A stretch of 32,159 bases of DNA from Candidatus Caccomonas pullistercoris (GTDB lineage Bacteria; Bacteroidota; Bacteroidia; Bacteroidales; Bacteroidaceae), in NCBI GenBank assembly GCA_018714085.1, contig DVNY01000097.1, positions 1 through 32,159 on the forward strand. Direction: 5' to 3'. A model generated the notes under the pieces. It made no database searches. It saw only the letters and a program-made list of their open reading frames with translations, and was not told where the DNA came from. Shown piece by piece: positions 1,914-28,381 of the stretch. Numbering within the stretch: the stretch's first letter is position 1; each line of letters opens with the position of its first letter. The translations under genes and the position numbers were made by a program.

Positions 1914-1997
1914 CGGCTGACAGAATTTGCAGGACGGCTGACAGAAATCACGGGACGGCTGACAGGATTTTCTGTCAGTGCGACAGGACAGACGGGA
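1914..1997. repeat. 21-bp tandem repeat array, copy 1 (four units, 84 bp)
   Basis: Four consecutive 21-bp units at 1914, 1935, 1956 and 1977. The first three start with CGGCTGACAG; units end in GCAGGA, ACGGGA, CTGTC and ACGGGA. The fourth unit is more diverged (AGTGCGACAGG). The array ends three bases before the stop codon of the MFS gene (stop at 2001-2003) and lies about 100 bp upstream of the promoter of the NfnAB-like gene. Across the end of unit 3 there is a perfect 7-bp inverted repeat, CTGACAG-GATTTT-CTGTCAG (1959-1978). Units 2-3 match units 2-3 of the array at 17787 at 41 of 42 bases. Confidence 0.9.
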
Positions 1998-2000
1998 TGG

Positions 2001-3206
2001 CTACCGCCCCCGCTCGAGACTGAACATGGCGAAGAAAAGTACGACGGCAAATCCCACCATCGGTACGGCAAACGCGGTCGTAAGCCCGAAAGCGTCGGCA
2101 AGATGCCCCGTGAGAAGCGGACCGACTGCGCCGCCCACCACGCTCAGCATCAGAAGCGACGATGCCAGGGCGCGGCGTTCACCGGCATAGCCCAACGAAA
2201 GGGCGAACACCGTGGGGAACATGATGCTCTCAAACACGTAACAGGCGACCAGCGCACCCACGGACAGCCATCCGTCCCCGGCCATGACGCAAGCCATGCA
2301 CACCAGTGCGCCCACGGCACAAACGGCCAACAGACGCTCCGCCGCCACGCGCCGCATGAGCGCGCTGCCCGCGAACCGCCCGGCCATGAACAGGCCTAAG
2401 CCGCCGAAAGAGAGCAGCAACGACGCATGGAGGGGCGAGACGTAGCCCGAGTCGCTCACAAAGTTGATGAAGAACGTGTTGATCGTTATCTCGGAAACTT
2501 CATAACAGAAGAGGGCAAACAGGCCGAAGTAGAACGTCGGCGCAATGCGCCCGCCGCAATCTTCTGGTCCTCTGAGGTCGCGCTCGACCACGACTTCGGG
2601 CAAACGCAACCTGACGAAGCACAGCGCCACCAGCAGGACAAAAGCGCCCAACACGACGTAGGGGACCGCCACATTGCGCGACGCAGGGCCCGCCGTCTCT
2701 GTGAAGAAGAACAGGCCGCCCGCCAGCGCGCCGACAATCGACCCGAGCCCGTTGAACGACTGTGCCCGGTTGAGACGACCGGCGGCAGTGAGCGGGTCGC
2801 CCAAAGCGGCTGCGTAAGGGTTGGCTGCCACTTCGAGCATCACCAGCCCGCAGCCGATGACAAACAGGGGAAGGAGCAAACCGTAGAACGTGCTGCCCCA
2901 CCCTGACGGCACGAAAAGGAAAGCGCCCGCCGCAAAAAGCAGAAGCCCCACGACGACTCCGGTCCGCGTTCCGCGGCTGCGGATGAACCATCCGGCGGGA
3001 AGGGCCATCAGGAAGTAAGCGCCATAGACCGTGACCTGCAACAAAGCCGACTCGCCTTTACTCACAGACAAGGTCTCCTGCACATGCTTGTTGAGTACGT
3101 CCAGGATGGCGCGCGCCATGCCCCAGACGAAAAACAGGGAGGTGATGAGCACAAACGGCCACAGGAACCGGTTGCCGACCAACGGCGTGCCTCGTCTCTC
3201 AGTCAT
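2001..3206 (-). CDS. Sugar MFS transporter, FucP/GluP-like
   Basis: A 401-residue inner-membrane protein with about twelve hydrophobic segments, the size of the fucose/glucose-galactose:H+ symporter branch of the major facilitator superfamily. The N-terminus (SLFFVWGMARAILDVLNK), the SxxRGTRTG loop after TM2-3 and the glycine-rich TM5 (NGLGSIVGALAGG) fit FucP-like permeases. It is the last gene of the eight-gene operon and its start overlaps the HAD stop by eight bases (ATGACTGA), which suggests translational coupling. The substrate cannot be read from sequence. A sugar or polyol is likely, and the neighbours make inositol a candidate (inference). No classical terminator follows; the 21-bp repeat array begins three bases after the stop. 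Confidence 0.85.
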   Translation of the reverse strand: MTERRGTPLVGNRFLWPFVLITSLFFVWGMARAILDVLNKHVQETLSVSKGESALLQVTVYGAYFLMALPAGWFIRSRGTRTGVVVGLLLFAAGAFLFVPSGWGSTFYGLLLPLFVIGCGLVMLEVAANPYAAALGDPLTAAGRLNRAQSFNGLGSIVGALAGGLFFFTETAGPASRNVAVPYVVLGAFVLLVALCFVRLRLPEVVVERDLRGPEDCGGRIAPTFYFGLFALFCYEVSEITINTFFINFVSDSGYVSPLHASLLLSFGGLGLFMAGRFAGSALMRRVAAERLLAVCAVGALVCMACVMAGDGWLSVGALVACYVFESIMFPTVFALSLGYAGERRALASSLLMLSVVGGAVGPLLTGHLADAFGLTTAFAVPMVGFAVVLFFAMFSLERGR

Positions 3207-3924
3207 GGCGCAGGTGTTTCAACAGGTCTGACAGGTCCGTGATGACGCAGTCGGCCAATTCGCCGTCGGGCTCATCGGCTGTCCACCCCTCGCCTTTCAG
3301 CCACGCCGTGGCGCAACCGACGGCGTGAGCCGGTACGACGTCCTTGTCGTAAGAGTCGCCCACGACGAGCACCTCGCCGGGCCGACACCCTGTGGCGTCG
3401 ACGCCAAGGCGATAGATGGCAGGGTCGGGCTTGCGCACACCGACTACGGCCGACTCGACAACGTGTGCAAAGCAATCAAGACGGAAGTCGCGCAGGATTG
3501 TTCCGATGTTGCCGTAAAAGTTAGAGACGAGCACCATCCCATAGTAGGGCCGGAGGCGTCCGAGCACCTCACGCGAATGCGCCGTCGTGCGGCGGGCATA
3601 TTCATAACCGTAGTCGGCTACGGCGTCAGACAGGCGTTTCCGCCCGCCGGCATCCACCGCCCAGCGCCCTTCATCGACAAGGAAGCGGGTTTCTATGTCT
3701 ACTTTTTTCATCAGTACGGCGCGGAAGTCGTCTTCGGGCATAATGATGCGTTGCCGGGCGAGCGTCCTCTCGCCATGCACGTAAGCCTCACGGAAATCGG
3801 CCTCCGAAACCGGGATACCGGCATTGACGTATCCCTCCCAAAGCACCCGCGCCCAGTGGCGGGCGTTCGTGTCGAGCGTGCCGCCATAGTCAAAGATGAG
3901 CGACTTTATTCCTTCGAACTGCAT
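3199..3924 (-). CDS. HAD-superfamily hydrolase
   Basis: A 241-residue cytosolic protein with the HAD Rossmann fold motifs in order: motif I FDYGGTLDT (nucleophile Asp12), motif II around VLVSNFYGN, motif III lysine in GVRKPDPAIY, motif IV VVGDSYDKDV. An alpha-helical cap fills residues 18-100. Most HAD phosphatases have DxD in motif I, where the second Asp is the general acid/base; here that position is Gly14, so phosphatase activity is not certain. The gene overlaps the flippase by 19 bases at its start and the MFS gene by eight at its end. In the operon it could remove a phosphate from an intermediate (for example an inositol phosphate or a lipid phosphate), but this is inference. Confidence 0.85.
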   Translation of the reverse strand: MQFEGIKSLIFDYGGTLDTNARHWARVLWEGYVNAGIPVSEADFREAYVHGERTLARQRIIMPEDDFRAVLMKKVDIETRFLVDEGRWAVDAGGRKRLSDAVADYGYEYARRTTAHSREVLGRLRPYYGMVLVSNFYGNIGTILRDFRLDCFAHVVESAVVGVRKPDPAIYRLGVDATGCRPGEVLVVGDSYDKDVVPAHAVGCATAWLKGEGWTADEPDGELADCVITDLSDLLKHLRHD

Positions 3925-4922
3925 ACTTCTTTCGTTATATTCTTGTTACCAACCTTGACGAGCGAGACGCCAATCACAATCCACACCAGTTCGCGGATGC
4001 GGGTGAAAAAACTGGCGTAAAGTCCGAACACACCGGGGATGGCGAGCCGGTTTACGATAATGGCGAGGCCACCCTCTCGCGCGCCGAGCTGCATGGGCAA
4101 GAAGAAAAGCATGTTGCTGAACAACGACGAGAAGGCCAGCACCAGGATGCTGTCGAAAAAGCTCACGTCGAGCGACATGGCGTTCAGGATGAAGTAATAC
4201 TCCAACGCGTTGACCACGCGGGCGACGTATTCGAAGAACAAGGCGCTGTAAAACCGCCGTCCACGGCTGTGGAGGTCGGCAATCTGGCTGTCGATTTGCG
4301 CGAACGTGTCGGCGTTCTTCTCATAAATCCTGACCGACCATCGTTTCAGCAGTGGAATGTGGGTCAGCAGGCGGAACAGTTTGACAACCATACCGTTGCG
4401 GTATCCTACATAAAAGAAATAAACGAGCACCGCACAGACCGCTGCAAACAAAGCAAAGAGCACCCAAAGCCCCGCATCGACCGTGTGAATGCAAATAAAG
4501 AGCACGACCGACGATGCCCAAAGGCAAATGTGCGACAGTATGTGCATCATCGAATAAAGCACGACCGACGATGCCGCACGGCTTGTCCCGACGAGCGCAT
4601 TCAGTTCCAACACGCGATAAGGCCCCCCGCCGAAGCCGAAAGGCGTCGTGTAGCTGAACGCAAAACCCGAAACGGTCAGCTTGTATGCCCGGGCAAACGA
4701 AAGGCGGCGGCCATCGTGCGCGCCGTTGTTCACGATGATTTGAAACGCCCAAGCGTTGAAGAAATACACCACGGCCCAAATCCCCACAATCGCAGGGAAC
4801 CACGCTCCGGCCCGTTTGAGCTTGTCGACAAGTTCGGCGTAATCCACGTCGAACGTACAGAGCATGACGACGATGGCAACGATGCCAAACGCCAGAAAGA
4901 AATTACGCAGCCTCGGGTTCAT
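3906..4922 (-). CDS. Flippase-like membrane protein (LPG-synthase transmembrane domain family)
   Basis: 338 residues with about eight hydrophobic segments and the pattern of the lysylphosphatidylglycerol-synthase TM domain family: a first segment, an AxxFxxxVNN-type loop, FSYTTPFGFGGGPYRVLELN, and the late motif FLPMQLGAREGG. Family members are polytopic inner-membrane proteins that act in, or move, lipids and are often found next to glycolipid or phospholipid genes. It follows the CDP-alcohol phosphotransferase with a 20-base overlap. Its likely role is therefore to handle or translocate the lipid made by its neighbour. There is no cytosolic aminoacyl-transferase domain, so it is not an MprF. 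Start ATG at 4922 gives MNPRLRNFFLAFG. Confidence 0.8.
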   Translation of the reverse strand: MNPRLRNFFLAFGIVAIVVMLCTFDVDYAELVDKLKRAGAWFPAIVGIWAVVYFFNAWAFQIIVNNGAHDGRRLSFARAYKLTVSGFAFSYTTPFGFGGGPYRVLELNALVGTSRAASSVVLYSMMHILSHICLWASSVVLFICIHTVDAGLWVLFALFAAVCAVLVYFFYVGYRNGMVVKLFRLLTHIPLLKRWSVRIYEKNADTFAQIDSQIADLHSRGRRFYSALFFEYVARVVNALEYYFILNAMSLDVSFFDSILVLAFSSLFSNMLFFLPMQLGAREGGLAIIVNRLAIPGVFGLYASFFTRIRELVWIVIGVSLVKVGNKNITKEVCSSKE

Positions 4923-11773: not shown

Positions 11774-11857
11774 AACCGTCCGGACTGTCGCAGTGACAGT
11801 TTTTCCGGCCAGCCGTCCCGTAAATTCTGTCAGCCGACCTGTTTTTACGGGACGGCG
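11774..11857. repeat. 21-bp tandem repeat array, copy 2 (inverted orientation)
   Basis: Read on the minus strand it holds four 21-bp units. Well-kept units lie at 11816-11836 (CGGCTGACAG then AATTTACGGGA) and 11795-11815 (CGGCTGGCCG then GAAAAACTGTC). The unit at 11837-11857 is CGCCGTCCCG then TAAAAACAGGT. The unit at 11774-11794 is diverged but resembles unit 4 of the array at 1914 (both have TGCGACAG). The array is in the region between the divergent GH25 and tail-domain genes, outside both promoters. Confidence 0.85.
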
Positions 11858-11953
11858 ACCTGTTTTTCACACCTCCCACCCGGAGCGCCGGCATGCACTG
11901 AAAGGAAAAGCCGTCAAAAAATAAAAAATAATTGGAATTTCGCACAATAAAAC

Positions 11954-13426: not shown

Positions 13427-13428
13427 CC

Positions 13429-14005: not shown

Positions 14006-16612
14006 TCATCGCCCGTTCTCCGCAATAAGCTGCCTCACCTTGCGGTTAAAGCCATCGGCCGTTTCAAGCTGCTCCACGGTGAGATGGACGCGGTAGCGCC
14101 AATAATGGGCGGCGTTTGCGGGATTGTTGATCTGCTCCTTCTCAGGGCTGGGACTACGCAGGGCGTCATCCATCGCCAGCCAGTCTTGAACGGCCAGCAG
14201 GCACAGCATCGACGGACAGGCAAGGTGGCGCACAATGACAGCCTCGCACGTCGGCGCGTCAGGCCATTCCGGCGCCGGACCGGGCAAACCGAGCACTCGG
14301 GTCCAGTATTCCTGTGCAGCGTCGGGCTGCTCGTGCCACCAGAGCCGGAGCGGCGGCATGTCGTGTGTCGAGATGGTGGCCACGGAAAGGTATGGATTTT
14401 TTTCAGCCCGCCCGAAACGCACCCACGGTTCCTTGGGCATGCGTTCGATCTCCAAAGAAAGTATTTCAAGTTGTTCAAGCACACCTTTGACCGAAGCCGG
14501 CACCATCCCGAGGTCTTCGGCGCAAGGAAGCATCGCCGTGCTCCCGACAACCGGCGGCAGTTTCTTTAACGCTTCGTCACGCCAGAAGTCGTTGTGTCGC
14601 ACGTAGAAGAAATCGTCGTAAAGGCGATTGAAAGCCGCCTGTTGACGAGCGTCAAGCGCGGCGTAAGCCGAAGTGTGCTGGGCAGCCACACGTGGATGAT
14701 AATGTCCGCGACAGTCTTCGTCTTCCATAAAGAGCACATCGGCCAGGAGCGTCATCAGTTCATCGCGCAGCGGCCCTGGGCCAACCGCAGCCTGGACGGC
14801 GCGCTGCGTGTCGGCACCCTGACGAGGAATCCAAGCACCGGAATCTTCCACGAAATAAGCCGCGGCAGCTTCGGCGCCGACGCGTCTGTCCAGTTCCCCT
14901 TTCGTAAAACGCGGAACCGTCATCCTTTTATCGAAGCGGAAACCTGCCGCTTCCATCTCGGCCACGCTGAGCGGCAAAGCCGGACGGAAATGTCCCAGCA
15001 GGCCGTAGACTTGGTCGTACGGTATCTCCCAAATTCGGAAAAAGCCCAATACATGGTCGATCCGGTACGCGTCAAAATACCGGGCCATATGCCGGAGCCG
15101 CGCCTTCCACCATGCGTAACCCTCATGAGCCATCGCGTCCCAATCATAAGTCGGGAAGCCCCAGTTCTGGCCGTCGCGGGCAAAGTCATCAGGCGGCGCG
15201 CCGGCCTGACCGTCGAAGTGGAACAACCTGCCGTCGACCCAGGCCGGCACACTGTCGCGACAGATGCCAATAGGGATGTCCCCCTTCAACAGGACGCCGA
15301 GACGGCGGGCTTCGTCATGGGCGGCCGCCATCTGCTCGTGCAGTTTGAACTGCGTGTAAAGGTAGAAGTCAAATTCATGGCTGAACGACGGGTCGCGCAC
15401 ACGGCGCTCGTCGATTTTCACAGGGTCATACTCGCTCCATTCGCCCCACTGCCTGAAATCGGCGGTTCCTTGCTCATCACGCAGGCAGCAGAAGGCCGCA
15501 TAAGGTTTCAGCCAGCCGACATTTTCGCGGAAATAGGCTTGACAGGCAGGCTGGGCCATCTCGGCGTCGCCCTTACGCTCGAAGCAGACACGTATGAACG
15601 CAAGTTTCAGGGCCATGACGGCTTCGTAGTCCACGGCGTCGAGCTGCTCGAGTCGCCTCCGCTCGTCGGCGATGGCGGCGTATTCGTCCGCGAGGTCACT
15701 GCCCGCCAAGGCTTCAAGGTCCATGTAAACCGGGTGGAAGGCGAACACGGACACCGAACTGTATGGATATGAATCGCGCCAAGTGTGGCTGCTCGTCGTG
15801 TCGTTCACGGGGAGCAGCTGGACAGCCTTCATGCCCACGCTTGCCGCCCAGCCGACAAAACGGCGCAGGTCGCCAAAATCACCAATACCGCAACTGTGCC
15901 CACTGCGCAGGGAGAACACCGGCACAACCACACCGGCCAGCCGAGGCAAGGTGCCTTCCATTCCGGCCCAAATGTCGTCGCGGCGTCGCCGGCCTTCCTC
16001 CCCGTCGGCCCGACGGTTGCGACACTGTTCCCATTCGACGGTCCCGTCCACATGCAGACGCACATATTTATACTCAAAAGCCTCTGCGGCTTTGTCCTCC
16101 GGGAGGGCAAAAATCCAACGGTTGCCTCCCACGGGCTGCATGCGCCGGGCATGGTCTACGGCCCAAGCGCCCAATTCGGGAATCGAGCCGAGCACGGCCC
16201 AGGACTCGCCTTCGGGGAGATCGGGCGCCGTGAGGCAGAGCAGGAGACCGCGTCCGACGGCAAGCGCCGGCGCCGCCTGGCGTCCGGGAAGCCGCGACAC
16301 CACCCCCGGCACGTTGCCATCGTTCCAACTGTCGGCCAGTTCATAGGCACCGGCCCCGTCTTCGACCAGAAGGCTGTGGCTCTCGCCACGTTCGGCCGCC
16401 TCGACGGCTCCGTCCCGGACTACGCGGTACGCATACGTCAGGCGTCCCGGACGGTCTATCCCTATGCTTCCGGTCCAGAGGAAACCGTCGGCTGTGGCGA
16501 GCCGGCAGGTTCCCGAAGCCAAAAGTCCTTCGGATCCGTCCAACGTATAGGCCGCTTCGAGCGCCTCACCCCAACGCGTGCCATAATCTATCTTAAAACT
16601 TACTGTCACCAT
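14006..16612 (-). CDS. malQ: 4-alpha-glucanotransferase (GH77) with N-terminal starch-binding modules
   Basis: 868 residues. Two carbohydrate-binding (CBM20-like) modules come first: residues 1-105 (VSFKIDYGTRWGEALEAAY) and about 115-225 (LGSIPELGAWAVDHARRMQ, FEYKYV). The GH77 catalytic domain follows: PVFSLRSGHSCGIGDFGDL, the nucleophile Asp in YRIDHVLGFFRIWEIP, the acid Glu in PCAEDLGMVP, and STHDMPPLRLWWHE. The enzyme transfers alpha-1,4-glucan segments between maltodextrins in the cytosol, in starch or glycogen use. This long form with CBM20 modules is usual in Bacteroidales and like plant DPE2. Start ATG at 16612 (MVTVSFKIDYG) is preferred over one at 16654, which adds 14 residues outside the CBM fold. 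No clear -7 element was found upstream. Confidence 0.93.
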   Translation of the reverse strand: MVTVSFKIDYGTRWGEALEAAYTLDGSEGLLASGTCRLATADGFLWTGSIGIDRPGRLTYAYRVVRDGAVEAAERGESHSLLVEDGAGAYELADSWNDGNVPGVVSRLPGRQAAPALAVGRGLLLCLTAPDLPEGESWAVLGSIPELGAWAVDHARRMQPVGGNRWIFALPEDKAAEAFEYKYVRLHVDGTVEWEQCRNRRADGEEGRRRRDDIWAGMEGTLPRLAGVVVPVFSLRSGHSCGIGDFGDLRRFVGWAASVGMKAVQLLPVNDTTSSHTWRDSYPYSSVSVFAFHPVYMDLEALAGSDLADEYAAIADERRRLEQLDAVDYEAVMALKLAFIRVCFERKGDAEMAQPACQAYFRENVGWLKPYAAFCCLRDEQGTADFRQWGEWSEYDPVKIDERRVRDPSFSHEFDFYLYTQFKLHEQMAAAHDEARRLGVLLKGDIPIGICRDSVPAWVDGRLFHFDGQAGAPPDDFARDGQNWGFPTYDWDAMAHEGYAWWKARLRHMARYFDAYRIDHVLGFFRIWEIPYDQVYGLLGHFRPALPLSVAEMEAAGFRFDKRMTVPRFTKGELDRRVGAEAAAAYFVEDSGAWIPRQGADTQRAVQAAVGPGPLRDELMTLLADVLFMEDEDCRGHYHPRVAAQHTSAYAALDARQQAAFNRLYDDFFYVRHNDFWRDEALKKLPPVVGSTAMLPCAEDLGMVPASVKGVLEQLEILSLEIERMPKEPWVRFGRAEKNPYLSVATISTHDMPPLRLWWHEQPDAAQEYWTRVLGLPGPAPEWPDAPTCEAVIVRHLACPSMLCLLAVQDWLAMDDALRSPSPEKEQINNPANAAHYWRYRVHLTVEQLETADGFNRKVRQLIAENGR

Positions 16613-16681
16613 GTTGCTACTGTTAAAAACTACGTTTCTTGGGGTTGTCAGCAAAAAAAATCGACAAAAAAGCCCAGTAGA

Positions 16682-16717: not shown

Positions 16718-16900
16718 TACAAAGAGGCTGCATCGGTTAGATCGGGATACTCATCAATAATAACGGAAATACCGAGAAAGCTACTCCGCTCAATGGCGGG
16801 CCGACACACTCGTTGGAGTCGGATTACAGAGATCGGAGGGCACTCAAATCTTATTTTAGCTCGGAGTTTCATCACATCACCGGTGTAGCCTTCTTTGTGT
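16718..16900 (+). ncRNA. Predicted structured small RNA, 6S-like
   Basis: About 183 nt. The two ends pair: 16719-16737 with 16879-16898, giving 19 base pairs with two G-U pairs and one bulged base. Inside is a mainly open region (16738-16771 facing 16865-16878). A further rod follows: CCGA/UCGG (16772-16775 with 16861-16864), GCUA/UAGC (16780-16783 with 16857-16860), CUCCG/CGGAG (16784-16788 with 16834-16838), and a top hairpin CCGAC/GUCGG (16801-16805 with 16818-16822). A closing stem, a central bubble and a long terminal arm of about 180 nt is the layout of 6S RNA, which binds the RNA polymerase holoenzyme. It is not SRP RNA, RNase P RNA or tmRNA: their core motifs are absent. A T-run at 16919-16924 could end it, but without a clear hairpin. 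RNA gene likely; 6S identity only a proposal. Confidence 0.6.
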
Positions 16901-16939: not shown

Positions 16940-17557
16940 TCAGGCCTTTTCAAGTATCCGTTCGATGTATGCACGGAGGATTTCGATGGCTTTCGCGTTT
17001 TCCCCGCCCTCTGGAATAATCAAGTCGGCCAGTTCCTTGGTCGGCTCGATGAACTCGCAGTGCATCGGTTTGAGCACTTGAAGGTAGCGGTTAATCACCA
17101 CGCGCGCGGTGCGGCCGCGCTCTTCGACGTCACGCTCAATCAGGCGGATCAGCCGCTCGTCCGGGTCTGCGTCGACGTAGAGTTTCAAGTCGAACATGCG
17201 GCGCAGGGCTTCTTTGTAAAGCACCATGATGCCCTCGACGATGACGACGTCGCACGGCTCGACGTGCACCGTCTCCTCCATGCGGTCGCAAGTCAGCACG
17301 GAGTAGGTCGGGACGTCGACGGCCCGGCCCTCGCGCAAGTCGGTCAGGTGACGGCAAAGCAGGTCCCACTCGAAAGCGTCGGGGTGGTCGTAGTTCAACT
17401 TTCGGAGCTGCTCGATGGTCATGCCTTTCGGCGCCCGCTTGTAATATGAATCCTGTGAGATGAGCGCTACTTGCTCACCCGGAAAGCTATCCCGTATTTT
17501 CCGCGCCACGGTCGTCTTGCCGGAACCGGTTCCGCCCGCGATACCAATTAAAATCAT
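16940..17557 (-). CDS. udk: Uridine kinase
   Basis: 205 residues, the usual length. The P-loop GGTGSGKTT is at residues 8-16, followed by ALISQDSYYK, the NYDHPDAFEWDLL motif that binds the nucleoside, PTYSVLTCDR, and VIVEGIMVLY (Walker B region). RLIERDVEERGRT is the lid, whose arginines contact phosphate. It phosphorylates uridine and cytidine with ATP or GTP in pyrimidine salvage. The gene stands alone, with its own -7 element 32 bases upstream of the ATG at 17557. Its 3' end is followed by the predicted RNA gene on the opposite strand, so the two transcripts converge. Confidence 0.95.
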   Translation of the reverse strand: MILIGIAGGTGSGKTTVARKIRDSFPGEQVALISQDSYYKRAPKGMTIEQLRKLNYDHPDAFEWDLLCRHLTDLREGRAVDVPTYSVLTCDRMEETVHVEPCDVVIVEGIMVLYKEALRRMFDLKLYVDADPDERLIRLIERDVEERGRTARVVINRYLQVLKPMHCEFIEPTKELADLIIPEGGENAKAIEILRAYIERILEKA

Positions 17558-17786: not shown

Positions 17787-17870
17787 GCTTTGACGGGAAA
17801 TCCTGTCCGGCTGACAGAAATCACGGGACGGCTGACAGGATTTTCTATCCGGCTGACAGGGATTCCTGTC
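17787..17870. repeat. 21-bp tandem repeat array, copy 3 (four units, 84 bp)
   Basis: Units start at 17787, 17808, 17829 and 17850. The last three start with CGGCTGACAG; they end in AAATCACGGGA, GATTTTCTATC and GGATTCCTGTC. The first is diverged (GCTTTGACGGG then AAATCCTGTC). It lies in the 444-base gap between the PepSY-like gene and udk, about 190 bases upstream of the udk promoter and 50 bases from the terminator at 17922. The rest of this gap (17597-17786 and 17871-17921) holds nothing I recognise. Confidence 0.9.
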
Positions 17871-17921
17871 GCCCGGACCGCTTTCGTCATCGCCCTGCCC
17901 CACCCTGACGGGCCTCACTGG

Positions 17922-18001: not shown

Positions 18002-19279
18002 TCATGCGTTCACGAAGCTGCCCTGCGGAGTGATGCGGACAAGGCGCTCGCGTTCGGTGCGGTCGTCTTCGACCTCGAAGACGTACCACTCGCCCGACGG
18101 CGTCTCGGCATAGTAAATGTCATCGACTTCCCAACGGGCGTAGTCGCTCTGGCGGAAAGCCTCGACGACGGCTTCGGGCAAGTCGCGGTAGGACACATCC
18201 CAACGCGTGAGCACCCAGTCGTTCCGGCCGTCGAAAAGCACTTCCTTCTCGCGGCCTTCGTGGCGTATCTCGACCTCGAGGTAACCGTCGTCGTAGTCTT
18301 TCTCGACAATGACAGCGCCAGGATATTGCTGGCTGACGAAGGCTTCGACCTTGCCACCGACGATGGCTCCGCCGCCCGCGGACTGGTAGAGCGAGAGCTG
18401 GCCGTCCGGCGTCACGCGGAGCTTGACATCGCCAAAGCGGCTGTCGAGTTCGAGGCGGTAGTAGCGGCCGTCGTTGGCCGTCTCGAAGAAGTCAATGTCG
18501 TCAAGGCGGTATCCGTTCGTTTCGGCATATTCAGAGGAGTCCCAAGCTGCCACGACCGCTGCGGGCAAGTCGGCCCGGCGCACTTCGGTCTGGGTGTACA
18601 GCCACGCGCCCGAGCGGTCGAAGACCACTTCGCGCAGCACACGGCCTGCGTCGACAAGCTCCACTTCGGTCAGGCCGTCGTCCGTGTCGACCTCAACGAT
18701 ACGGGCGTCGGGATAATGACTGCGGATGAAATCCATCACGCTGCCGCCGGGCGTCGAGGGAATGAGCCCGTCGTAATCAGACTGGCCGCCACCGTCGGCA
18801 ACTGCCTTGACGAGCACGCCGTCTTCCGTGTAATAAAGGTCCATCTCCTGACCGGCGTTCTCCACCTCGATGACGTAAAGCAGGGTGACGCCCTCACGAC
18901 GGATCAGGTCGACGTCGTCCACACGCCATGTGGCGTATTCGCTGGTCTGGAAAGCGGTCTTCACAGCTTCGGGCAGGCGGTCGAAACGCACGTCGTACTC
19001 ACTCATCAGCCAGGCGCCGTCCGACTGATTGAACCAAGCCGACCCGGGCACCCAACCGCCGCCGTCGGCGTCAGAGTAAGAGAAGTCGGCCACGGCATAG
19101 GTGCCCCTGACTTCCCACTCGACGTCACGCGCACCGGGGAACAGGCTCTCAAACGTGCTCTGCGCCTGAGGCGAAACTTGTCCGGCGCCGGGAGGGCGTC
19201 CGTCCTCGTCGTTGCTGCAAGCCGTCGTAAGCATCAGGCAGACGGCGAGCGCCGACACAATTCTTGGGTATTTCCTCAT
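18002..19279 (-). CDS. Lipoprotein with three PepSY-like repeat units
   Basis: 425 residues. The signal peptide (RIVSALAVCLMLTTAC) ends in a lipobox with Cys at about 21. After a short linker come three copies of a ~125-residue unit, at about 38-160, 168-293 and 300-425. Each has a first half with a FPGA or YPDA/YPGA motif plus an acidic strand, and a second half starting LPEAV or LPAAV followed by Y-A-x-W and a DD(V/I/D) strand. This is the pattern of the Bacteroidales PepSY-like (beta-lactamase-inhibitor-like) domain, a periplasmic or surface module of unknown ligand. The protein is highly acidic. The gene has its own promoter and a palindrome at the transcription start. It follows the S9 peptidase gene, 93 bases away and on the same strand. 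Confidence 0.8.
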   Translation of the reverse strand: MRKYPRIVSALAVCLMLTTACSNDEDGRPPGAGQVSPQAQSTFESLFPGARDVEWEVRGTYAVADFSYSDADGGGWVPGSAWFNQSDGAWLMSEYDVRFDRLPEAVKTAFQTSEYATWRVDDVDLIRREGVTLLYVIEVENAGQEMDLYYTEDGVLVKAVADGGGQSDYDGLIPSTPGGSVMDFIRSHYPDARIVEVDTDDGLTEVELVDAGRVLREVVFDRSGAWLYTQTEVRRADLPAAVVAAWDSSEYAETNGYRLDDIDFFETANDGRYYRLELDSRFGDVKLRVTPDGQLSLYQSAGGGAIVGGKVEAFVSQQYPGAVIVEKDYDDGYLEVEIRHEGREKEVLFDGRNDWVLTRWDVSYRDLPEAVVEAFRQSDYARWEVDDIYYAETPSGEWYVFEVEDDRTERERLVRITPQGSFVNA

Positions 19280-21884: not shown

Positions 21885-24800
21885 TTAATAAATGTGTCTG
21901 TTTATTATCTCACTCTCGCTGATCAGCTCACGGTACAGGGGATTGCGGCTGAGCAGGAGGTCGTTGCCCACGACTAACAGTTGCATCCTCGCCCTTGTGA
22001 CAGCGACGTTCAGCTTGCGGTCGACAGGTCGGCCATCCACTTGCTGCACGGCGGAAAGGAGGCCGAGCTGGTAGGGCTGACTGATCGTCGTGCTGAAAAT
22101 GATGTGGTCGCGTTGGCTACCTTGGTAACACTCCACGGTGTCCACGGTGATGCGTCCGGCGTCCGCGATGCCCCGCCGCGAAAGAGCCTGTCGGACCAGG
22201 GCGATCTGATTGCGGAACGGCACGATGACGCCGACCTGCCTCGCGGCGTCGAAAGGCAGACTGTTCAAGGCGTAAAGCCGCCCGATGGCCTCCACCAGTG
22301 CGGCCACGGTTTCGGCCTCGGCCGCATTGGCCTTGTTGTTGGCCACAGGACGGTCCGGCCGAACGGGCAGGAAACCCAGACGCACTCCGGCGATGGCGCG
22401 CGACAGCCCTTGACCCACTTGCACAAACGGCAGTTTCCCCAACTGGTGCGGCAACGGGACGGGACGCAGTCTGCCGGCATAGAAGAGCTGGTTGACGTAA
22501 TCGCTGATGGCCGGGTGCATCCTTCCTTGGCAGTCAAGCCAGCCATAGCAGTCCGTCCGCCCCCATCCGCACAACAGTCCGTAGAGCCGTTCAAAGAGGG
22601 AGTTGCTCAGGTCGGTCAGCCCGATCTTGCGCAAACAAGCGTCCGAGACGCGGGTGTCGCGTTCGGGTTGCACGACGACGGCCGGAAGCTGTTTGTGGTC
22701 GCCGATGAGGATGAACTTCCCAATCAACGGTTCGCCGTCAGCGGCAGCACATAAGAGGGGGAGCAATTGGGGTTCAAGAATCTGGGAAGCCTCGTCGACG
22801 ATGACAGCCTCAAAACGTTTGAAGGCCAGAAGCCCGGTGTGCCCCGACAGGGTAGCGACTGTTCCGACGACGACCGGGACGTGCAGCAAGGCTGCGGCCA
22901 CCTCTTCGCGCCGAGCCAGGCCATCGGCCCACTGCGAGAGCAGGTGTGACCTGTACTGCGGGGCGCACGTCTGTTCTACGCCGATACGCACGTAGTCTGC
23001 GACAGGCACAAGCGTCTCCAACATCTGGCAAATCTCGTCCACGGCCCGGTTCGTATAAGCCGACAGGAGCAGGCTGCGACCGGGACGACAGGCGTTTTCG
23101 AGCAGGAACTCCTCAACCATGGCCCGGAGGGCGACACTCGTCTTCCCCGTCCCGGGCGGCCCGACAAGGAGGTAATAATCGCGGGCTTGCTTGGCTGAAA
23201 GGACAATGGAAGCGATCGCCTTGTTGGCATAGTGTCCGCACAACGTCACGCCGGCCTCACGCTCAGGCTGGCGCAGTCCCAAAAGAAGTCGCCTGCGGCT
23301 TTCGGGCGCGGTCAGGAACTGATAAAGTCCCCGGTAGGCCTGGGAAAAAACCGAGTCAGAACTGTCGTGCTCGACGGCATAGCCACTGTCTGTGGGCAGC
23401 ACTTTCGCGTTGCGTTGGGCGTAAGTGAGCTGGACGACGAGGGCTTCGTCTGTCAGGCTCTCGATATATCCCCGGAAGAGCTGGCGGTTGGTCACGTTGT
23501 CCTCCGGGCCATTCCAGACATAGAGCTGCACCATCTCGCCTTCCGCAAAGCCGGGCAGGAAATCCGGCCCGTAGTCAGGCAGCGAAAAGACAAGGCGACT
23601 GATGCCGCGGTCGCCCTCGGCCGTCCGTAGGCGCAGGCCGGTCAGGATGTCACCCGACAGCCGCTTGGCGTCAACACCGGCTTTCCACACACGGGCAAAG
23701 CCTCGTGTCGAATCAGGGCGGTTGTCGCCGATTTTCGCAAAATAATGCTCACGTTTCAGGAAAGCAAGGAAAGCATTGAAATAGCGCCCGGCGAGGCCTT
23801 CGTCGCCATTGCCGCAGCGCGCCTGCTCACGCAGGACGCCGCACATGCGTTCGAGGGGCGGGCGCAGGTAGGTCCCGAAAAAACGCCCGTCCATGTGACG
23901 CTCGTTGAGGGTGTCGACCGTCAGCTGGTCGAGCAAGCCCACAAGGCCGTCGCGGCGCAACTGTTTTTCGAGGCAGACAATGCCGTTGCGCAACCGCATG
24001 GCGGCAGCGATGGCGTCGCGCGGGGTGCGCTCGTCGTAGAGGACGGGATAGCGGGAATAGAGCAAGTAAGTATGGATGTCCTGATAGGGTATGCCGAAGT
24101 TATAATGAAGGATGGCCTTGTACAGTCCCATTTGCAACGCATGGGGCATCTGTGGACGCGGTTCATGGCCAAAATCGTCCGCACGTCCGCTTTTCAACTC
24201 CACGACACGGCGATGGTCAAGGGTCATCACGTCCAACCGTCCACGCAGCCCCATAGCCTCGCAGATGAACGAGGGTTCGAGCACGAGCTGGCCGGCGGCT
24301 AAGCCATTGTCGGGCGCGGGGAAGTCGTCCGTGACGGTCTTGCGGATGTGGCAATAATGCTTGTAGGCTTCCTCGAAATAGTCACGGTCAACCTTCTCGT
24401 CCGTCGTGGCATAGTCAATCAGGTGTTCGCGGAAATGCGCCTGCATCGACCGCACGAAAGCCTCGCGCGGCGGGACGTCGGTGCCGCCATTGATGCAGTC
24501 GTCCATGAAGCTGTTGGCCGCTTCACCGAGGAGGATGGGGAGCGTCACGCGGCGGGGGGCAAGCTGGTCGAGCAGGTAGTTGAGCGGATGGCTGCCATAA
24601 GGTTTGACGCTGGCTGCAAGACGGCTGACGTCAAGCAGGAAATCGGGTTCGAGCACAAGCATCGAGGGACGCAGTTCCTGCCCTTGGCGGACACAGTCGA
24701 GCGCATTGAGCTGCGCGCCAGGCTCAACCTGACGAAGAATAGGGTCATTGGGCGGACAGGCAATGTAAAAGGTTTCACCCTTGGGCGTGTCGGAACTTAC

Positions 24801-25286
24801 GACGTCGAGGCCACAGCCCTGCACGCCGACGACCGTCAGACGGACGCAGCGACAGGTCTCGCCGGTCGGGGCAACAGGATTTTCTGTCACTACTCCAGAC
24901 TTTCCTGTCACTGCTTCAGTTTTTCCTGTCACTGCGACTGTTCGCGCCAAATCGCCGGGCAGCGGGAAGGCATAGAGCGAAGAGAGCCACGCGCAAAGCG
25001 CGGCCCAATCGCGACGGTAGCCTGCTTCGGAGGGGGCGGCCTCATGGTTCAGCACGAGGCGGGCATTGCGGCGCGCGCGGTCGACGGCGTGATAATCAAG
25101 TCCGCGATGCTGGCAGACGGCATAGAGCCGCGAGAAAAGTCCGGAGTATTCGGCATGGCTATGGGCGGTTTCTTCGACACAGACACGGCGCATGAGTTCC
25201 TGCAAGCGCCGATAACGCTCCACAAGTCCGACGCGCTCATCCCCCAAAGCCCGCAACTCGTCGACATATGCTTCTTCCTTATTCAC
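21885..25286 (-). CDS. Dna2-like nuclease-helicase (PD-(D/E)XK plus superfamily 1 helicase)
   Basis: 1133 residues from a GTG start at 25286. The middle carries a PD-(D/E)XK nuclease core: GLRGRLDVMTLDHRRVVELKSGR (Asp, then ExK at about 363). The C-terminal half is an SF1 helicase: Walker A VGPPGTGKTS (about 712), VIVDEASQILEP (motif II), GDHKQLPAVV (III), VGVIVPFRNQ (IV), VECYQGSQRDHIIFSTT (V) and KLNVAVTRARMQLLVVGN (VI). The order nuclease then helicase is that of Dna2, which processes flaps and DNA ends. Its GTG overlaps the stop of the lytic transglycosylase gene (GTGAATAA), which suggests coupled translation; earlier in-frame starts lie inside that gene. Residues about 119-146 are encoded by a 21-bp repeat array and look like an insertion (VTGK, VTGK, VTEN). 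Confidence 0.85.
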   Translation of the reverse strand: MNKEEAYVDELRALGDERVGLVERYRRLQELMRRVCVEETAHSHAEYSGLFSRLYAVCQHRGLDYHAVDRARRNARLVLNHEAAPSEAGYRRDWAALCAWLSSLYAFPLPGDLARTVAVTGKTEAVTGKSGVVTENPVAPTGETCRCVRLTVVGVQGCGLDVVSSDTPKGETFYIACPPNDPILRQVEPGAQLNALDCVRQGQELRPSMLVLEPDFLLDVSRLAASVKPYGSHPLNYLLDQLAPRRVTLPILLGEAANSFMDDCINGGTDVPPREAFVRSMQAHFREHLIDYATTDEKVDRDYFEEAYKHYCHIRKTVTDDFPAPDNGLAAGQLVLEPSFICEAMGLRGRLDVMTLDHRRVVELKSGRADDFGHEPRPQMPHALQMGLYKAILHYNFGIPYQDIHTYLLYSRYPVLYDERTPRDAIAAAMRLRNGIVCLEKQLRRDGLVGLLDQLTVDTLNERHMDGRFFGTYLRPPLERMCGVLREQARCGNGDEGLAGRYFNAFLAFLKREHYFAKIGDNRPDSTRGFARVWKAGVDAKRLSGDILTGLRLRTAEGDRGISRLVFSLPDYGPDFLPGFAEGEMVQLYVWNGPEDNVTNRQLFRGYIESLTDEALVVQLTYAQRNAKVLPTDSGYAVEHDSSDSVFSQAYRGLYQFLTAPESRRRLLLGLRQPEREAGVTLCGHYANKAIASIVLSAKQARDYYLLVGPPGTGKTSVALRAMVEEFLLENACRPGRSLLLSAYTNRAVDEICQMLETLVPVADYVRIGVEQTCAPQYRSHLLSQWADGLARREEVAAALLHVPVVVGTVATLSGHTGLLAFKRFEAVIVDEASQILEPQLLPLLCAAADGEPLIGKFILIGDHKQLPAVVVQPERDTRVSDACLRKIGLTDLSNSLFERLYGLLCGWGRTDCYGWLDCQGRMHPAISDYVNQLFYAGRLRPVPLPHQLGKLPFVQVGQGLSRAIAGVRLGFLPVRPDRPVANNKANAAEAETVAALVEAIGRLYALNSLPFDAARQVGVIVPFRNQIALVRQALSRRGIADAGRITVDTVECYQGSQRDHIIFSTTISQPYQLGLLSAVQQVDGRPVDRKLNVAVTRARMQLLVVGNDLLLSRNPLYRELISESEIINRHIY
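24849..24932. repeat. 21-bp tandem repeat array, copy 5, inside the helicase gene
   Basis: Read on the minus (coding) strand: three well-kept 21-bp units, starting at 24932, 24911 and 24890, each beginning GTGACAG(A/G)AAA, and one diverged unit (24869-24849, CCGACCGGCGAGACC) like the fourth unit of copy 1. Each unit is seven codons, so the array adds 28 codons in frame: VTGKTEA, VTGKSGV, VTENPVA, PTGETCR. Length (84 bp), unit number (four) and the GACAG(G/A)A core agree with the four intergenic arrays, though the CGG start is replaced by GTG here. Confidence 0.75.
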
Positions 25287-26514
25287 CTTCGACTTCGCTG
25301 AACGCGGCGTCCGTAGGCCGCAGGATTTCCACTTTCTTTGCGTAGCGGTTGCGCTTCGTGGCGCGTTTTGGCTCAGAGTATGCCGCTCCTGACGCCACGC
25401 CCGGCCCACTGCCCGGCACGCCGCCGTAAGAACGCCAGATGTCCATGACGGACGACACGTAGTTGTACGTCTCGTTCCCAATCATATATCCGTGCTTCAC
25501 CACAGGGTCACGATAATAACGGGGACTGCTCAGGCCGAGCACATAGCGGCTGACGTTGTCCCAACGTGTCGGGTCCTGGCCATGTTTGCTGCAAAGAGCC
25601 ATCGCGTCGCGGATGTGGTAATAGCCGCCGTTGTAGGCCGCCAGCACGAACTTGATGCGCTCGCCCCCGTCGCGTATTTCGCGAAAACTTTGCGACAGTT
25701 CACGGATGTAGCGTGCTGCGGCCGCCACGTTCTCCGCCGGATCGTGGACGCGCTCCGGACTGAGCCCGAGATGTCGCGCCGTGGCCGGCATGATCTGCAT
25801 AAGTCCCTGTGCGCCAGCCCATGAGACGGCTTCGGGGTCAAAGCCGGACTCTTGATAACACTGGGCGGCGAGCAGTTTCCAGTCCCACCCCGTCACGCGC
25901 GAGGCGGCTTTGAAATGGGCGTCGTACTCCGAAATGATGCCCTTGGCACGCGACAGGTATCGCGCCCGGACACGACGGCGCACCTGGCGGCGCTCCCGCT
26001 GTTGTGTCTGCTCCTGGCGCGTCAACTGCCGGGCTATGTCGGGCGTGTACCAGTCTTTCAGGGCCTTGGCCAGCTCTGGGGTGTCGCCGCGGACAGCCCA
26101 CGACAGTTTTCCGCCGTCGGCTGTGGCGCCGCTGGCCACGAGGCGATGCGCGCTGATGTAATTGAGCGGAAGGGGATAAGCCACGACGTCGACCTCAGCC
26201 GCCGCCAACGCCTCGCACAACTCCGCCGAATCGCGATACAACTCGACACGCAGGCGCACCCCGACACGCTGGGCGAAATGTTCGGCCAGGTAATACTGCA
26301 AACCGAGTGGGCGGCCATGATATTCATAATAGCTCTCGGGACCGTTAAGCGTAGCCACGATGAGCTCGCCTGCTTCCTGTATGCGCGTCAGGTCGTAGGC
26401 CGAGGTCTCAGTCTCGGCCGAAGGGGCGAACGCCGCATTGGCCGGCGCTTCGGGCGCCTTTTGGCACGACGCAAGGACGCACGCGATGAAAAAAAGAAGC
26501 AATAGGTGTCGCAA
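25279..26514 (-). CDS. mltF: Membrane-bound lytic transglycosylase, MltF-like lipoprotein
   Basis: 411 residues. A lipoprotein signal (LLLLFFIACVLASC) comes first. Residues 45-150 resemble a solute-binding protein family 3 domain (ELIVATLNGPESYYEYHGRPLG, VDVVAYPLP). A basic helical linker QQRERRQVRRRVRARYLS follows. The SLT domain starts near residue 205: LLAAQCYQESGFDPEA with the catalytic Glu, AGAQGLMQIMPATA, and VLAAYNGGYYHIRDA. The enzyme would cleave peptidoglycan, releasing anhydro-muropeptides, at the inner face of the outer membrane. The start must be a TTG at 26514, because an in-frame stop (TAA) lies directly upstream and there is no ATG near the signal peptide. The stop overlaps the helicase start by eight bases. 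Confidence 0.9.
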   Translation of the reverse strand: MRHLLLLFFIACVLASCQKAPEAPANAAFAPSAETETSAYDLTRIQEAGELIVATLNGPESYYEYHGRPLGLQYYLAEHFAQRVGVRLRVELYRDSAELCEALAAAEVDVVAYPLPLNYISAHRLVASGATADGGKLSWAVRGDTPELAKALKDWYTPDIARQLTRQEQTQQRERRQVRRRVRARYLSRAKGIISEYDAHFKAASRVTGWDWKLLAAQCYQESGFDPEAVSWAGAQGLMQIMPATARHLGLSPERVHDPAENVAAAARYIRELSQSFREIRDGGERIKFVLAAYNGGYYHIRDAMALCSKHGQDPTRWDNVSRYVLGLSSPRYYRDPVVKHGYMIGNETYNYVSSVMDIWRSYGGVPGSGPGVASGAAYSEPKRATKRNRYAKKVEILRPTDAAFSEVEGE

Positions 26515-26521
26515 TTATTTG

Positions 26522-26529
26522 TACTTTTG
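26522..26529 (+). promoter_or_regulatory. Candidate -7 promoter element of the Dabb gene
   Basis: TACTTTTG, an exact TAnnTTTG match on the plus strand, 38 bases upstream of the ATG at 26568. No clear -33 TTTG was found at 19-21 nt. It faces the minus-strand -7 element at 26534-26541. Confidence 0.45.
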
Positions 26530-26533
26530 CAGG

Positions 26534-26541
26534 CAAAGTTA
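26534..26541 (-). promoter_or_regulatory. Candidate -7 promoter element of the lytic transglycosylase gene
   Basis: TAACTTTG on the minus strand, an exact TAnnTTTG match, 19 bases before the TTG start at 26514. The two facing -7 elements are four bases apart, so the transcripts would overlap by about ten bases at their 5' ends. Confidence 0.55.
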
Positions 26542-26567
26542 CAACTTCTCAATAAACTATAAAAGCG

Positions 26568-26867: not shown

Positions 26868-26876
26868 AACTGAAAA

Positions 26877-26922
26877 AATCCCCGCCACACACTTGCCTCT
26901 CGGCTTCGGTGTGGCGGGGATT
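26877..26922. terminator. Bidirectional terminator hairpin
   Basis: A perfect 14-bp stem, AATCCCCGCCACAC (26877-26890) with its complement at 26909-26922, and an 18-nt loop. A-runs precede it (TGAAAAAATCC). It lies between the converging Dabb and conserved hypothetical genes. Confidence 0.85.
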
Positions 26923-26947
26923 ACTCACTATGTAACTCACCAATAAA

Positions 26948-27574
26948 TTATCCTTCGTAGAACTCACCGTCGAAAATGGGAGAGTCTGCCACCGGGGCCG
27001 GCTCTGGGGCCACTACGTTCTCCGGGAGGGCGTCACCGATAAAGCGGTAGGTATAGCTGTTTCCCTTGGACGACGGGAACTGGCTGCGGAGGTCGACATC
27101 CTGACGGTTTTTGAGGTGATCGACAATCCGTTCGTAGCAATGCTGCGCACTGTCGGCTTTCACGTAAGCCGAAAAACGCGTGTCCTGATACTGGAACTTG
27201 CTGGTGCCCGGTATGGGAATGACGCGCTTGAACACGATGGCTCCTTCATACCAGCCAGGTTGAACGCTGTTAAGTTGGCTAAGCTTTGTCTCTTTGCGTG
27301 CCTGCGCTTCTGTCACTTCATTGACAGGGGCAGACTTTTTGTTCATTTTGAACTCGGCAAGCGTCTGTGCGACCGTTTTTATCAAGATAAAGTAAATCCG
27401 TGGGCGGACTTTGTAGCGCTTAGGATAAGGCATGTCGCTCGCGGCGTAGTCTTTGATATCAGCCACTAACGCAGGCGTAATCATGATTTCAGGAATGGAA
27501 GACAGAAATTCAACAACTTCGTCAACGCTGCTCGCTACGGTTTCTTGATCGAAATAACGGACGTATAAATTCAT
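26948..27574 (-). CDS. Conserved Bacteroidales protein of unknown function
   Basis: 208 residues starting at the ATG at 27574 (MNLYVRYFDQETVASSVDE); a longer frame to 27622 reads back towards the tRNA-Gly gene and is not supported. No catalytic motif is recognised. The N-terminal half has YPKRYKVRPRIYFILIKTVAQTLAEF, a basic/aromatic segment. The C-terminal half is beta-rich (WYEGAIVFKRVIPIPG, YQDTRFSAYVKADSAQHCYERIV) and ends in an acidic, proline-rich tail (APEPAPVADSP). There is no signal peptide or membrane segment. From memory, proteins of this type are common in Bacteroidales and annotated as hypothetical. It lies 113 bases downstream of the tRNA cluster on the same strand and may be transcribed with it; no separate promoter was found. 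Confidence 0.75.
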   Translation of the reverse strand: MNLYVRYFDQETVASSVDEVVEFLSSIPEIMITPALVADIKDYAASDMPYPKRYKVRPRIYFILIKTVAQTLAEFKMNKKSAPVNEVTEAQARKETKLSQLNSVQPGWYEGAIVFKRVIPIPGTSKFQYQDTRFSAYVKADSAQHCYERIVDHLKNRQDVDLRSQFPSSKGNSYTYRFIGDALPENVVAPEPAPVADSPIFDGEFYEG

Positions 27575-27686
27575 AAGAGTTACAAAAAAACACTTGCCCT
27601 CTCGGACAAATTCGTTATCCAACGGGAGAAGGATTGCCTACTGCGTAAAAAAGTTGTTTTACCACCTCCCGGCATTCTCAAAATTG

Positions 27687-27759
27687 AGCGGAAAACGAGA
27701 CTCGAACTCGCGACCCCAACCTTGGCAAGGTTGTGCTCTACCAACTGAGCTATTTCCGC
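27687..27759 (-). tRNA. tRNA-Gly (GCC), second copy
   Basis: 73 nt, no encoded CCA. On the minus strand: acceptor GCGGAAA/TTTCCGC, D-arm TAGCTCAGTTGGTAGAGC, anticodon loop TTGCCAA (anticodon GCC) in a fully paired CAACC/GGTTG stem, and T-loop TTCGAGT. It is the last tRNA of the cluster and differs from the first by one base in the anticodon stem. Confidence 0.95.
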
Positions 27760-27766
27760 AAGCAAG

Positions 27767-27850
27767 TGAAGAGGAGGAGACTCGAACTCCCACGACATAA
27801 TCGTCACTACCCCCTCAAAGTAGCGCGTCTACCAATTCCGCCACCTCTCC
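27767..27850 (-). tRNA. tRNA-Leu (GAG)
   Basis: 84 nt with the long variable arm of class II tRNAs (TGACGATTATGTCGT). Acceptor GGAGAGG pairs with CCTCTTC, with one G-T pair. The anticodon loop is TTGAGGG (anticodon GAG), so it reads CUU/CUC. The T-loop is TTCGAGT. No encoded CCA. Confidence 0.93.
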
Positions 27851-27876
27851 AAGTTTGCCTGACTGACGAAACGAAG

Positions 27877-27959
27877 TGCCCAGAACAGGACTCGAACCTG
27901 CACGTCATTGCTAACACCAGTACCTGAAACTGGCGCGTCTACCATTCCGCCACCTGGGC
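27877..27959 (-). tRNA. tRNA-Leu (CAG)
   Basis: 83 nt, class II, with a long variable arm (around GTTAGCAATGAC). Acceptor GCCCAGG pairs with TCTGGGC. The stem CCAGT/ACTGG closes the loop TTCAGGT (anticodon CAG), which reads CUG. The T-loop is TTCGAGT. No encoded CCA. Confidence 0.93.
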
Positions 27960-27993
27960 CGCTCTTTTTCGTCGTTAGTTGTTCAATAAATTG

Positions 27994-28066
27994 AGCGGAA
28001 AACGAGACTCGAACTCGCGACCCCAACATTGGCAAGGTTGTGCTCTACCAACTGAGCTATTTCCGC
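27994..28066 (-). tRNA. tRNA-Gly (GCC), first copy
   Basis: 73 nt, identical to the copy at 27687-27759 except for one base: position 39 is T, not G. This makes a C-T mismatch at pair 31-39, the last pair of the anticodon stem. Anticodon GCC. It is the first gene after the promoter at 28094-28124. Confidence 0.93.
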
Positions 28067-28093
28067 TTATCGCGTTTTCTCTCAAACGCGGTG

Positions 28094-28124
28094 CAAAGAT
28101 AGCGCTTTTATTATTACCGACAAA
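28094..28124 (-). promoter_or_regulatory. Complete -33/-7 promoter of the tRNA cluster
   Basis: On the minus strand: TTTG (28124-28121), 19 nt, TATCTTTG (28101-28094). Both elements match the consensus. The first tRNA begins 27 bases downstream at 28066. Confidence 0.85.
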
Positions 28125-28297
28125 CTTTTGGGACAAAAAATTACGCAAAACACTGCTTTTTTCCTTTTCGCAGGCATGTAGAAACGCGGAGATGGCGATT
28201 CTTATGACTTCACGGGACAACAGAAAAAGCAGGGCGTTTTTTCGCTAACAGGCTGATTTTCATAAAGCCACGAACTGCTCTGTGAGGAAGAACGGGA

Positions 28298-28381
28298 CGG
28301 CTGACAGAAAAAACAGGTCGGCCGACAAAATTTTCTAAATAACTGACAGAATTTTCGGGACGGCTGGCCGAATTTTACGGA
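28298..28381. repeat. 21-bp tandem repeat array, copy 4 (four units, 84 bp)
   Basis: Units at 28298 (CGGCTGACAG then AAAAAACAGGT), 28319 (CGGCCGACAA then AATTTTCTAAA), 28340 (TAACTGACAG then AATTTTCGGGA) and 28361 (CGGCTGGCCG then AATTTTACGGA). The array lies between the gltA terminator and the tRNA promoter, 174 bases upstream of the latter. Between 28125 and 28297 I see no gene, only a possible single decayed unit near 28211. Confidence 0.88.

Follow-up and report, generated by a model that had tools for sequence, protein, structure and literature searches.

A dispersed family of phase-locked 21-bp repeat arrays in Candidatus Caccomonas pullistercoris, with other spellings in its congeners

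The DNA analysed here is a 32,159-nucleotide stretch of the Candidatus Caccomonas pullistercoris genome (contig DVNY01000097.1), referred to below as the window, and it contains five short arrays of a 21-bp repeated unit, Table 1. A preliminary description had presented them as five arrays of exactly four units. All five are present, with scores of 37.8 to 84.9 bits, in a corrected register of a 15-bp block followed by a 6-bp spacer. The claimed period is recovered for only some of them by Tandem Repeats Finder (minimum score 30), which detects three of the five. According to our gene calls, made with a self-written caller trained on this genome, four arrays are intergenic, as had been stated, and the fifth is located inside a helicase gene, where its reading encodes TVAVTGKTEAVTGKSGVVTE in an apparent N-terminal linker. 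The helicase gene was matched in five out of five congeners searched, and no array was found in its ortholog in G043 (G-codes denote the congeners compared, and G000 the analysed genome itself, i.e. the own species). The reported lack of a neighbouring transposase agrees with a Pfam scan of ten open reading frames of the window, which covered part of the neighbouring genes; eight matched a family and none was a transposase. Known structured RNA was considered as an explanation of the arrays and rejected, the window holding just a 6S-like RNA and four tRNAs, and four other loci only a tRNA. The match of this 6S-like RNA to the Bacteroidales-1 family points to a probable member of the order Bacteroidales.

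Table 1. Features of the window. In the columns: the feature, its position in the window, the blocks with their orientations (R or F), the context or source, and the array score in bits.
Feature	Position	Blocks	Context or source	Score
Array 1	1909..1986	four 15-bp blocks, 6-bp spacers, RRRF	intergenic	84.9
Array 2	11785..11841	three, RFF	intergenic	48.0
Degenerate extra block	11848-11862	one	in register after array 2	
Gene	14006-16654			
Bacteroidales-1 RNA (suggested 6S RNA)	16726-16896		between the preceding and the following gene	
Uridine kinase-like gene	16940-17557			
Array 3	17803..17880	four, RRRF	intergenic, past the stop of the PepSY-like gene	80.2
PepSY-like gene	18002-19279		minus strand	
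Helicase gene (AAA_11/AAA_12)	21885..25481		Pfam scan; self-written gene caller starts at 25286	
Array 4	24884..24940	three	in frame within AAA-type helicase gene, minus strand	37.8
Four tRNA genes (Gly-gcc twice, Leu-gag, Leu-cag)	27686-28066		adjoin array 5	
Array 5	28293..28370	four, RRRR, inner two weak	intergenic, tRNA cluster to citrate synthase gene	45.3

The five arrays belong to a large family. A dimer pattern with up to three mismatches finds 272 places in the whole genome and none in the reversed control, so the copies expected elsewhere do exist, and the single exact unit CTGTCAGCCG....G......C also has 272 places, with two in its control. The assembly is one draft of 2,154,759 bp in 181 contigs, 86.5% complete, from which we sampled 61 stretches with 764,889 bases (36% of the genome): the window, 40 stretches from contigs in which matches had been located and 20 unselected stretches. 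Arrays were scored with a matrix built from the sampled sequence itself, which makes absolute bit scores optimistic, and the safeguard is the count in a control made by Markov resampling of these 765 kb. Above the threshold of 22 bits we obtain 117 arrays in the sample and none in the control, where three arrays pass 14 bits and none passes 16. An unconstrained matrix diverged, with 343 control matches vs 913, and was discarded. As array density is uneven, the number 117 should not be scaled to the whole genome.

Each 21-bp unit is formed by a 15-bp block, with C first and G last, and a 6-bp, mostly AT-rich spacer. Four blocks per array is the mode and not a strict rule: two blocks are found in 6 arrays, three in 43, four in 57, five in 10 and six in 1. 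Neighbouring seeds are 21 bp apart in 137 out of 157 cases and 42 bp apart in 18, and block orientation inverts without loss of phase. Read in one orientation, the block starts with CTGTC (220/254) or CGGTC (34/254) and continues with AGCCG (210/254) or ACTGC (44/254); the third part is a variable arm, e.g. TCCCG, GACAG, ACTTG or GATAG. Where C or T precedes the final G, T mostly follows (116/146), and where A or G precedes it, A or G mostly follows (84/96). All these counts come from seeds in which the first ten letters were fixed. At four places per block a pyrimidine-purine (YR) step occupies either of two neighbouring positions, the two frequencies adding up to 0.96-1.00, and no other position exceeds 0.11; such steps flank each spacer on both sides. 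At 21 bp the GC content varies with an amplitude of 0.231, vs 0.078 at 10.5 bp; for G043 the values are 0.202 and 0.115.

Copies in the own genome are diverse, with 252 distinct 27-mers among 254 and no exact 48-bp segment common to two of the 117 arrays, and the array edges fade over two to three further degenerate units. Out of 15 positions, adjacent blocks agree on average in 11.48, blocks within an array in 11.31 and blocks of different arrays in 11.05, and identical blocks show a slight excess within arrays (6.8% vs 3.3% between them); in G043 the within-array and between-array values are 10.42 and 9.83. Flanks resemble the flank of another array in 28 of 227 cases (control 20 of 234; 53 vs 16 pairs), which gives little sign of a larger conserved element around the own-species arrays, and no leader or tail was found. 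A few of them have other interspersed repeats beside them, about 80-115 bp long and in some cases inverted in order (loci L038, L051 and L069; L046, L064, L066 and L071).

The inverted repeat quoted earlier at 1959-1978 is there in the sequence. It does not generalise to adjacent units, and a hairpin across each spacer was rejected for the own species: facing arms match in 56 of 308 cases vs 73.8 expected. By the measure of orientation pairs a dyad tendency exists in the own genome only (RF 66, FR 33, FF 115, RR 94), not in G043 (RF 62, FR 61, FF 84, RR 91).

With phase-locked units and a mostly non-coding location the arrays form a defined family, as had been suggested, and it is the strict avoidance of coding sequence that fails, since 11 out of 117 arrays lie in genes, in frame. 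The others are found in tandem (52), convergent (24) and divergent (21) gaps or at contig ends (9); for 93 arrays of G043 above 20 bits the numbers are 40, 17, 28 and 1, with 7 in genes. Counted per gaps of at least 100 bp, the own genome has 21 arrays per 58 divergent, 52 per 134 tandem and 24 per 51 convergent gaps, and G043 has 28 per 73, 40 per 195 and 17 per 49. Arrays are thus not rarer in divergent gaps, and intrinsic terminators were rejected on this ground. Among own gaps of at least 110 bp, 97 out of 234 are occupied, none by two arrays, and of 298 such gaps in G043, 81 hold one array and two hold two. Start codons are avoided: 5% of own and 3% of G043 arrays are within 60 bp of one, vs 23% and 17% when arrays are placed at random in these gaps, while 33% and 46% are within 60 bp of a stop, vs 28% and 34%. 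The in-gene arrays (11 own, 7 in G043) fall within open frames of genes predicted by the caller, apparently in linkers or tails, and are read as seven-residue repeats such as GRLTENP or STTTGKT.

Distances below 2 kb between neighbouring arrays are depleted in four species (own, G043, G016 and G022). For the first two we used a strict null that kept the count of occupied gaps in every stretch and drew gaps with weights taken from the occupancy observed at their length (2000 draws, in-gene arrays excluded); it replaced a looser null that had given larger effects. In the own genome one distance out of 57 (1.8%) is below 2 kb vs 16.6% in the null, with no draw as low, and the coefficient of variation (CV) is 0.45 vs 0.62 (1/2000); the 20 unselected stretches yield just one of the distances. 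In G043, two out of 77 distances (2.6%) are below 2 kb vs 8.4% (12/2000), and 6.5% are below 3 kb vs 15.4% (7/2000). For four further species, places up to 200 bp apart were merged as one array and compared with an exponential null that ignores gene layout. No distance below 2 kb was found in G016 (0/47 among the matches listed, 5.0 expected, P 0.005), G022 (0/40 among the matches listed, 5.4 expected, P 0.003), G042 (0/32, 2.5 expected, P 0.070) or G055 (0/27, 1.9 expected, P 0.144). The in-gene arrays that can be compared, 8 out of 11 in the own genome and 7 out of 7 in G043, are all 15 separated by more than 2 kb from any intergenic array, while 60% and 70% of random coding positions would be.

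The own-species dimer, with up to two mismatches, occurs in none of 57 congeners searched, and the same plan is found there in other spellings. The nearest congener found by one protein is G043 (70% identity; the median for 236 reciprocal pairs is 76%). In 999 kb of its sequence 91 arrays score above 22 bits, against none in the control, and most have three to five blocks. Its blocks have the middles ACTAC, GCAGC and GCTAC and the arms CAAGT, CTATC and CTGTC, and these arms are present in the own species too. Chains in G043 occur 182 times at 21 bp, compared with 0, 2, 10 and 1 times at 19, 20, 22 and 23 bp. The two species have one block type in common, which occurs at 330 strand-places in G043 and at 28 in the own genome, the other 56 having 0-1. 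Matches to a third spelling, CTGCAGTGCTTG, are found at 324 places in G022, 237 in G016, 11 in G048 and 0-2 elsewhere (reversed controls 0-4 per strand), and a fourth, CCATGGGATG, has 61 places in G042, 53 in G055 and none in the other 56. Because one plan has many spellings, a sequence search with the unit of one species misses the others. The 15+6 reading was made by eye on few arrays for G022, G042 and G055, and the spacer of the latter two is not AT-rich. Among nine species sampled, with the gene caller trained on the own genome, five (own, G043, G042, G055 and G022) have 21 as the top distance between non-coding repeats, while it is tied at three counts in G041 and weak in G004. Neither these clade-specific spellings nor the spacing between arrays had been foreseen in the preliminary description.

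Several G022 arrays, inspected by eye (L205, L206 and L221), follow a similar outer block resembling TGACACTTTGCAAG and then A-rich DNA; in one case checked the outer block is in the same 21-bp register. A scan of GTDB genomes with one dimer pattern, from which the own genome may have been excluded, returned two records, a Streptomyces and a Thermoanaerobaculia metagenome-assembled genome. In the latter there are seven exact dimer matches (L032, 5090-5414) with spacings that are multiples of 21. Two words searched against viral contigs gave no exact match, and a phage or virus origin was rejected on that result.

Positions can be compared between species as well. Among conserved gaps of at least 110 bp in both G000 and G043, five hold arrays in both, three in the own species only, one in G043 only and 15 in neither (Fisher P 0.007); without the length limit (63 gaps) the numbers are 5, 6, 1 and 51. 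The five shared pairs differ in their words. Among nine ortholog pairs of the same two species, one protein has an array at the same place in both, again with different words, and in another gene both carry one at the 3' end. For three own arrays, among them the one in the window helicase, no counterpart was found in G043, and one G043 array faces a short remnant-like stretch in the own gene, so the array is missing or only a remnant in one species in four of the nine; three of the nine pairs are cut by contig ends or too diverged. Arrays may also have been gained independently at the same place in G000 and G043. Between G042 and G055 the array is at the same place in both of the two loci compared.

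Tentatively, and with a little less than an even chance of being right, we interpret the arrays as dispersed chromosomal sites for a sequence-specific DNA-binding protein with an architectural role. It is favoured because the units are phase-locked, the arrays vary little in size and keep their distance in coding as well as non-coding DNA, start codons are avoided, and two species have arrays at common positions with different words. Twenty-one base pairs are two turns of B-DNA, and the putative protein would bind along a single face of the helix, each 15-bp pseudo-dyad block taking one dimer, with flexible YR steps flanking the AT spacer. It would probably bend or wrap the DNA and so organise chromosome domains or topology. 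If its specificity drifted, selection would rewrite the dispersed arrays, and each clade would acquire its own spelling. We regard as rather unlikely the stronger proposal of a chromosome-wide grid of helically phased binding arrays, kept at least about 2 kb apart whether in genes or between them, that is respelled throughout the genome upon a change in the specificity of the protein.

A number of observations speak against the binding-site interpretation. The protein is one that we infer, none having been seen. Two of the nine species sampled (G034 and G037) show no 21-bp signal, arrays are absent at many orthologous positions and therefore turn over, and the contigs not chosen for matches hold fewer arrays, with at least nine in the unselected 150 kb. 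Spacing is weaker in G043, where the CV is 0.74 vs 0.85 (178/2000) and distances below 1 kb are no rarer than in the null; of its two short distances one is a single array split by the caller and the other is a pair 138 bp apart. The spacing in G042 and G055 agrees but alone is not significant, the arrays being too sparse. Many G043 arrays are inverted repeats in which changes are matched on both sides, spacers included (TCGTTC facing GAACGA), and often end in CAAGT...ACTTG. Compared with arrays reassembled from pooled units the palindrome score has a z of 8.5 in G043 and -1.5 in the own species. Thirteen of 93 G043 arrays share exact segments of at least 48 bp with another array, some being near-identical copies, and together with the whole-array inverted repeats this looks like copying or hairpin correction. 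Finally, 26 out of 49 pattern-found arrays of G042 are inside a larger dispersed repeat of about 350 bp, which is present in G055 (L191, 8664-9023) and at 36 further G042 places: besides the ortholog, 33 long and 3 partial matches, with 40 of 176 candidates scored. Its copies are about 68-76% alike, with TGTCCGC at the start and GCGGACA near the other end. For another array of G055, the matches at other G042 places extend over no more than the array itself. A second dispersed repeat, of about 90 bp (L191, 9093-9184), has at least 14 places in G042 among the matches listed.

The whole-array hairpin was rejected as a general feature, as it holds in G043 and not in the own species. The palindromes being found in one species and not the other, what the arrays have in common is the 21-bp phase and not strand pairing.

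These palindromes, copies and carrier repeats are what favours the close rival of the binding arrays, a selfish palindromic repeat comparable to repetitive extragenic palindromes (REP) and REPINs, to miniature inverted-repeat transposable elements (MITE) or to Rickettsia palindromic elements. It would be moved in trans by a putative enzyme, and target immunity would produce the spacing of about 2 kb. As the unit is seven codons long, such an element would survive in frame inside proteins, and the in-frame gene copies, for some of which no counterpart was found in the second species, as well as the clade-specific amplification are consistent with it. Target immunity of the Tn7 type would produce spacing, and the TnsB end sites of Tn7, about 22 bp, likewise form short arrays in which the binding sites follow one another at about two helical turns; unlike Tn7 ends, the arrays have no cargo seen, no transposase among the window reading frames scanned and are in many cases solitary. 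Against the selfish repeat, the own-genome copies are not near-identical and are without fixed ends, the common array positions carry different words, the arrays of G042 and G055 are co-located at the two loci compared, and viral contigs lack exact matches to the two words searched. No Y1 transposase (PF01797, RAYT-type) was found in G000 or in G043 (90% complete), other enzymes not having been searched for, and a REP moved by a RAYT was rejected on this basis; the family is present in 26 out of 41 genomes searched, including the array carriers G042, G055, G022 and G016. On balance we doubt the selfish repeat more than we believe it, and consider it a serious possibility all the same. Neither it nor the favoured binding arrays is proved, and the two are not mutually exclusive. 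Both readings of the preliminary description, a protein-binding array and a mobile element moved in trans, are still live ones.

Topoisomerase or gyrase wrapping sites, i.e. functional analogues of BIME-2 (a bacterial interspersed mosaic element), seem improbable to us. They would fit the intergenic location nearer to stops than to starts, the YR steps on both sides of each spacer, a footprint that fades over a few units and the dyad tendency of the own genome, though RF and FR pairs are balanced in G043. The Escherichia coli gyrase motif is degenerate with a 10.75-bp GC period (PMC6379681), while the arrays have specific words and a GC amplitude that is stronger at 21 bp than at 10.5 bp. A functionless minisatellite made by tandem duplication and slippage would explain tandem units, fading edges and the slightly more frequent identity of blocks and spacers within an array than between arrays, and we give it hardly any credence since units invert without losing phase, block number is narrow, blocks are barely more alike within an array than between arrays and the arrays are spaced.

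A literature search, judged by titles and the openings of abstracts, recognised no published description of the 21-bp plan, most subscription journals being outside its reach. BrickBuilt of Porphyromonas gingivalis has 23-nt direct repeats in 19 copies of 1 to 22.8 units, with a leader, a tail and small inverted-repeat ends, and is always intergenic (PMC4596501). The arrays resemble it in being dispersed, intergenic, short-period repeats with imperfect units, and differ by their 21-bp period, more than 100 copies, a mode of four blocks, units that invert in phase, the lack of a leader or tail found in the own species and the 11 of 117 copies in genes. With REP, BIME and REPIN they share hundreds of mainly intergenic copies, a palindromic tendency, a mosaic order of units and a lineage-specific sequence. 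REPINs are linked to RAYTs (PMC3116915, PMC3733652), and for the REPs of SBW25 neighbour distances above 200 bp are described as without significant deviation from random (PMC3116915); the arrays are phase-locked at 21 bp, depleted in neighbours below 2 kb and, in G000 and G043, without a Y1 transposase. Rickettsia palindromic elements, about 150 bp long in ten families with nearly half in open reading frames (PMC10969869), are palindromic repeats that, like some of the arrays, are inserted in frame within protein genes. The arrays differ from them in the smaller in-gene share, the 21-bp modular anatomy and the spacing tendency, and a whole-element palindrome of their kind is seen in G043 and not in the own species. 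Unlike MITE, which have fixed ends with terminal inverted repeats, the own-species arrays fade over 2-3 units; G043 arrays often have the ends given above. PARCELs are 25-residue coding repeats (PMC2996958). The gyrase motif and BIME-2 sites are similar in being extended phased sites, some in intergenic repeats, and have been suggested to aid genome organisation (PMC6379681); the arrays differ in period and in the specificity of their words.

If the arrays are selfish, they form a class of palindromic repeat whose copies visibly tend to keep a minimum spacing and which tolerates insertion in frame; in two species it has no detectable Y1 (RAYT-type) transposase. If they are binding sites, they point to a chromosome-organising protein not yet described and would be a rare case of many dispersed sites respelled together, so that the co-evolution of site and protein could be tested across congeners. 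The grid, if true, would be a bacterial counterpart of fast-evolving pairs of binding site and protein, and a new mode of nucleoid organisation.

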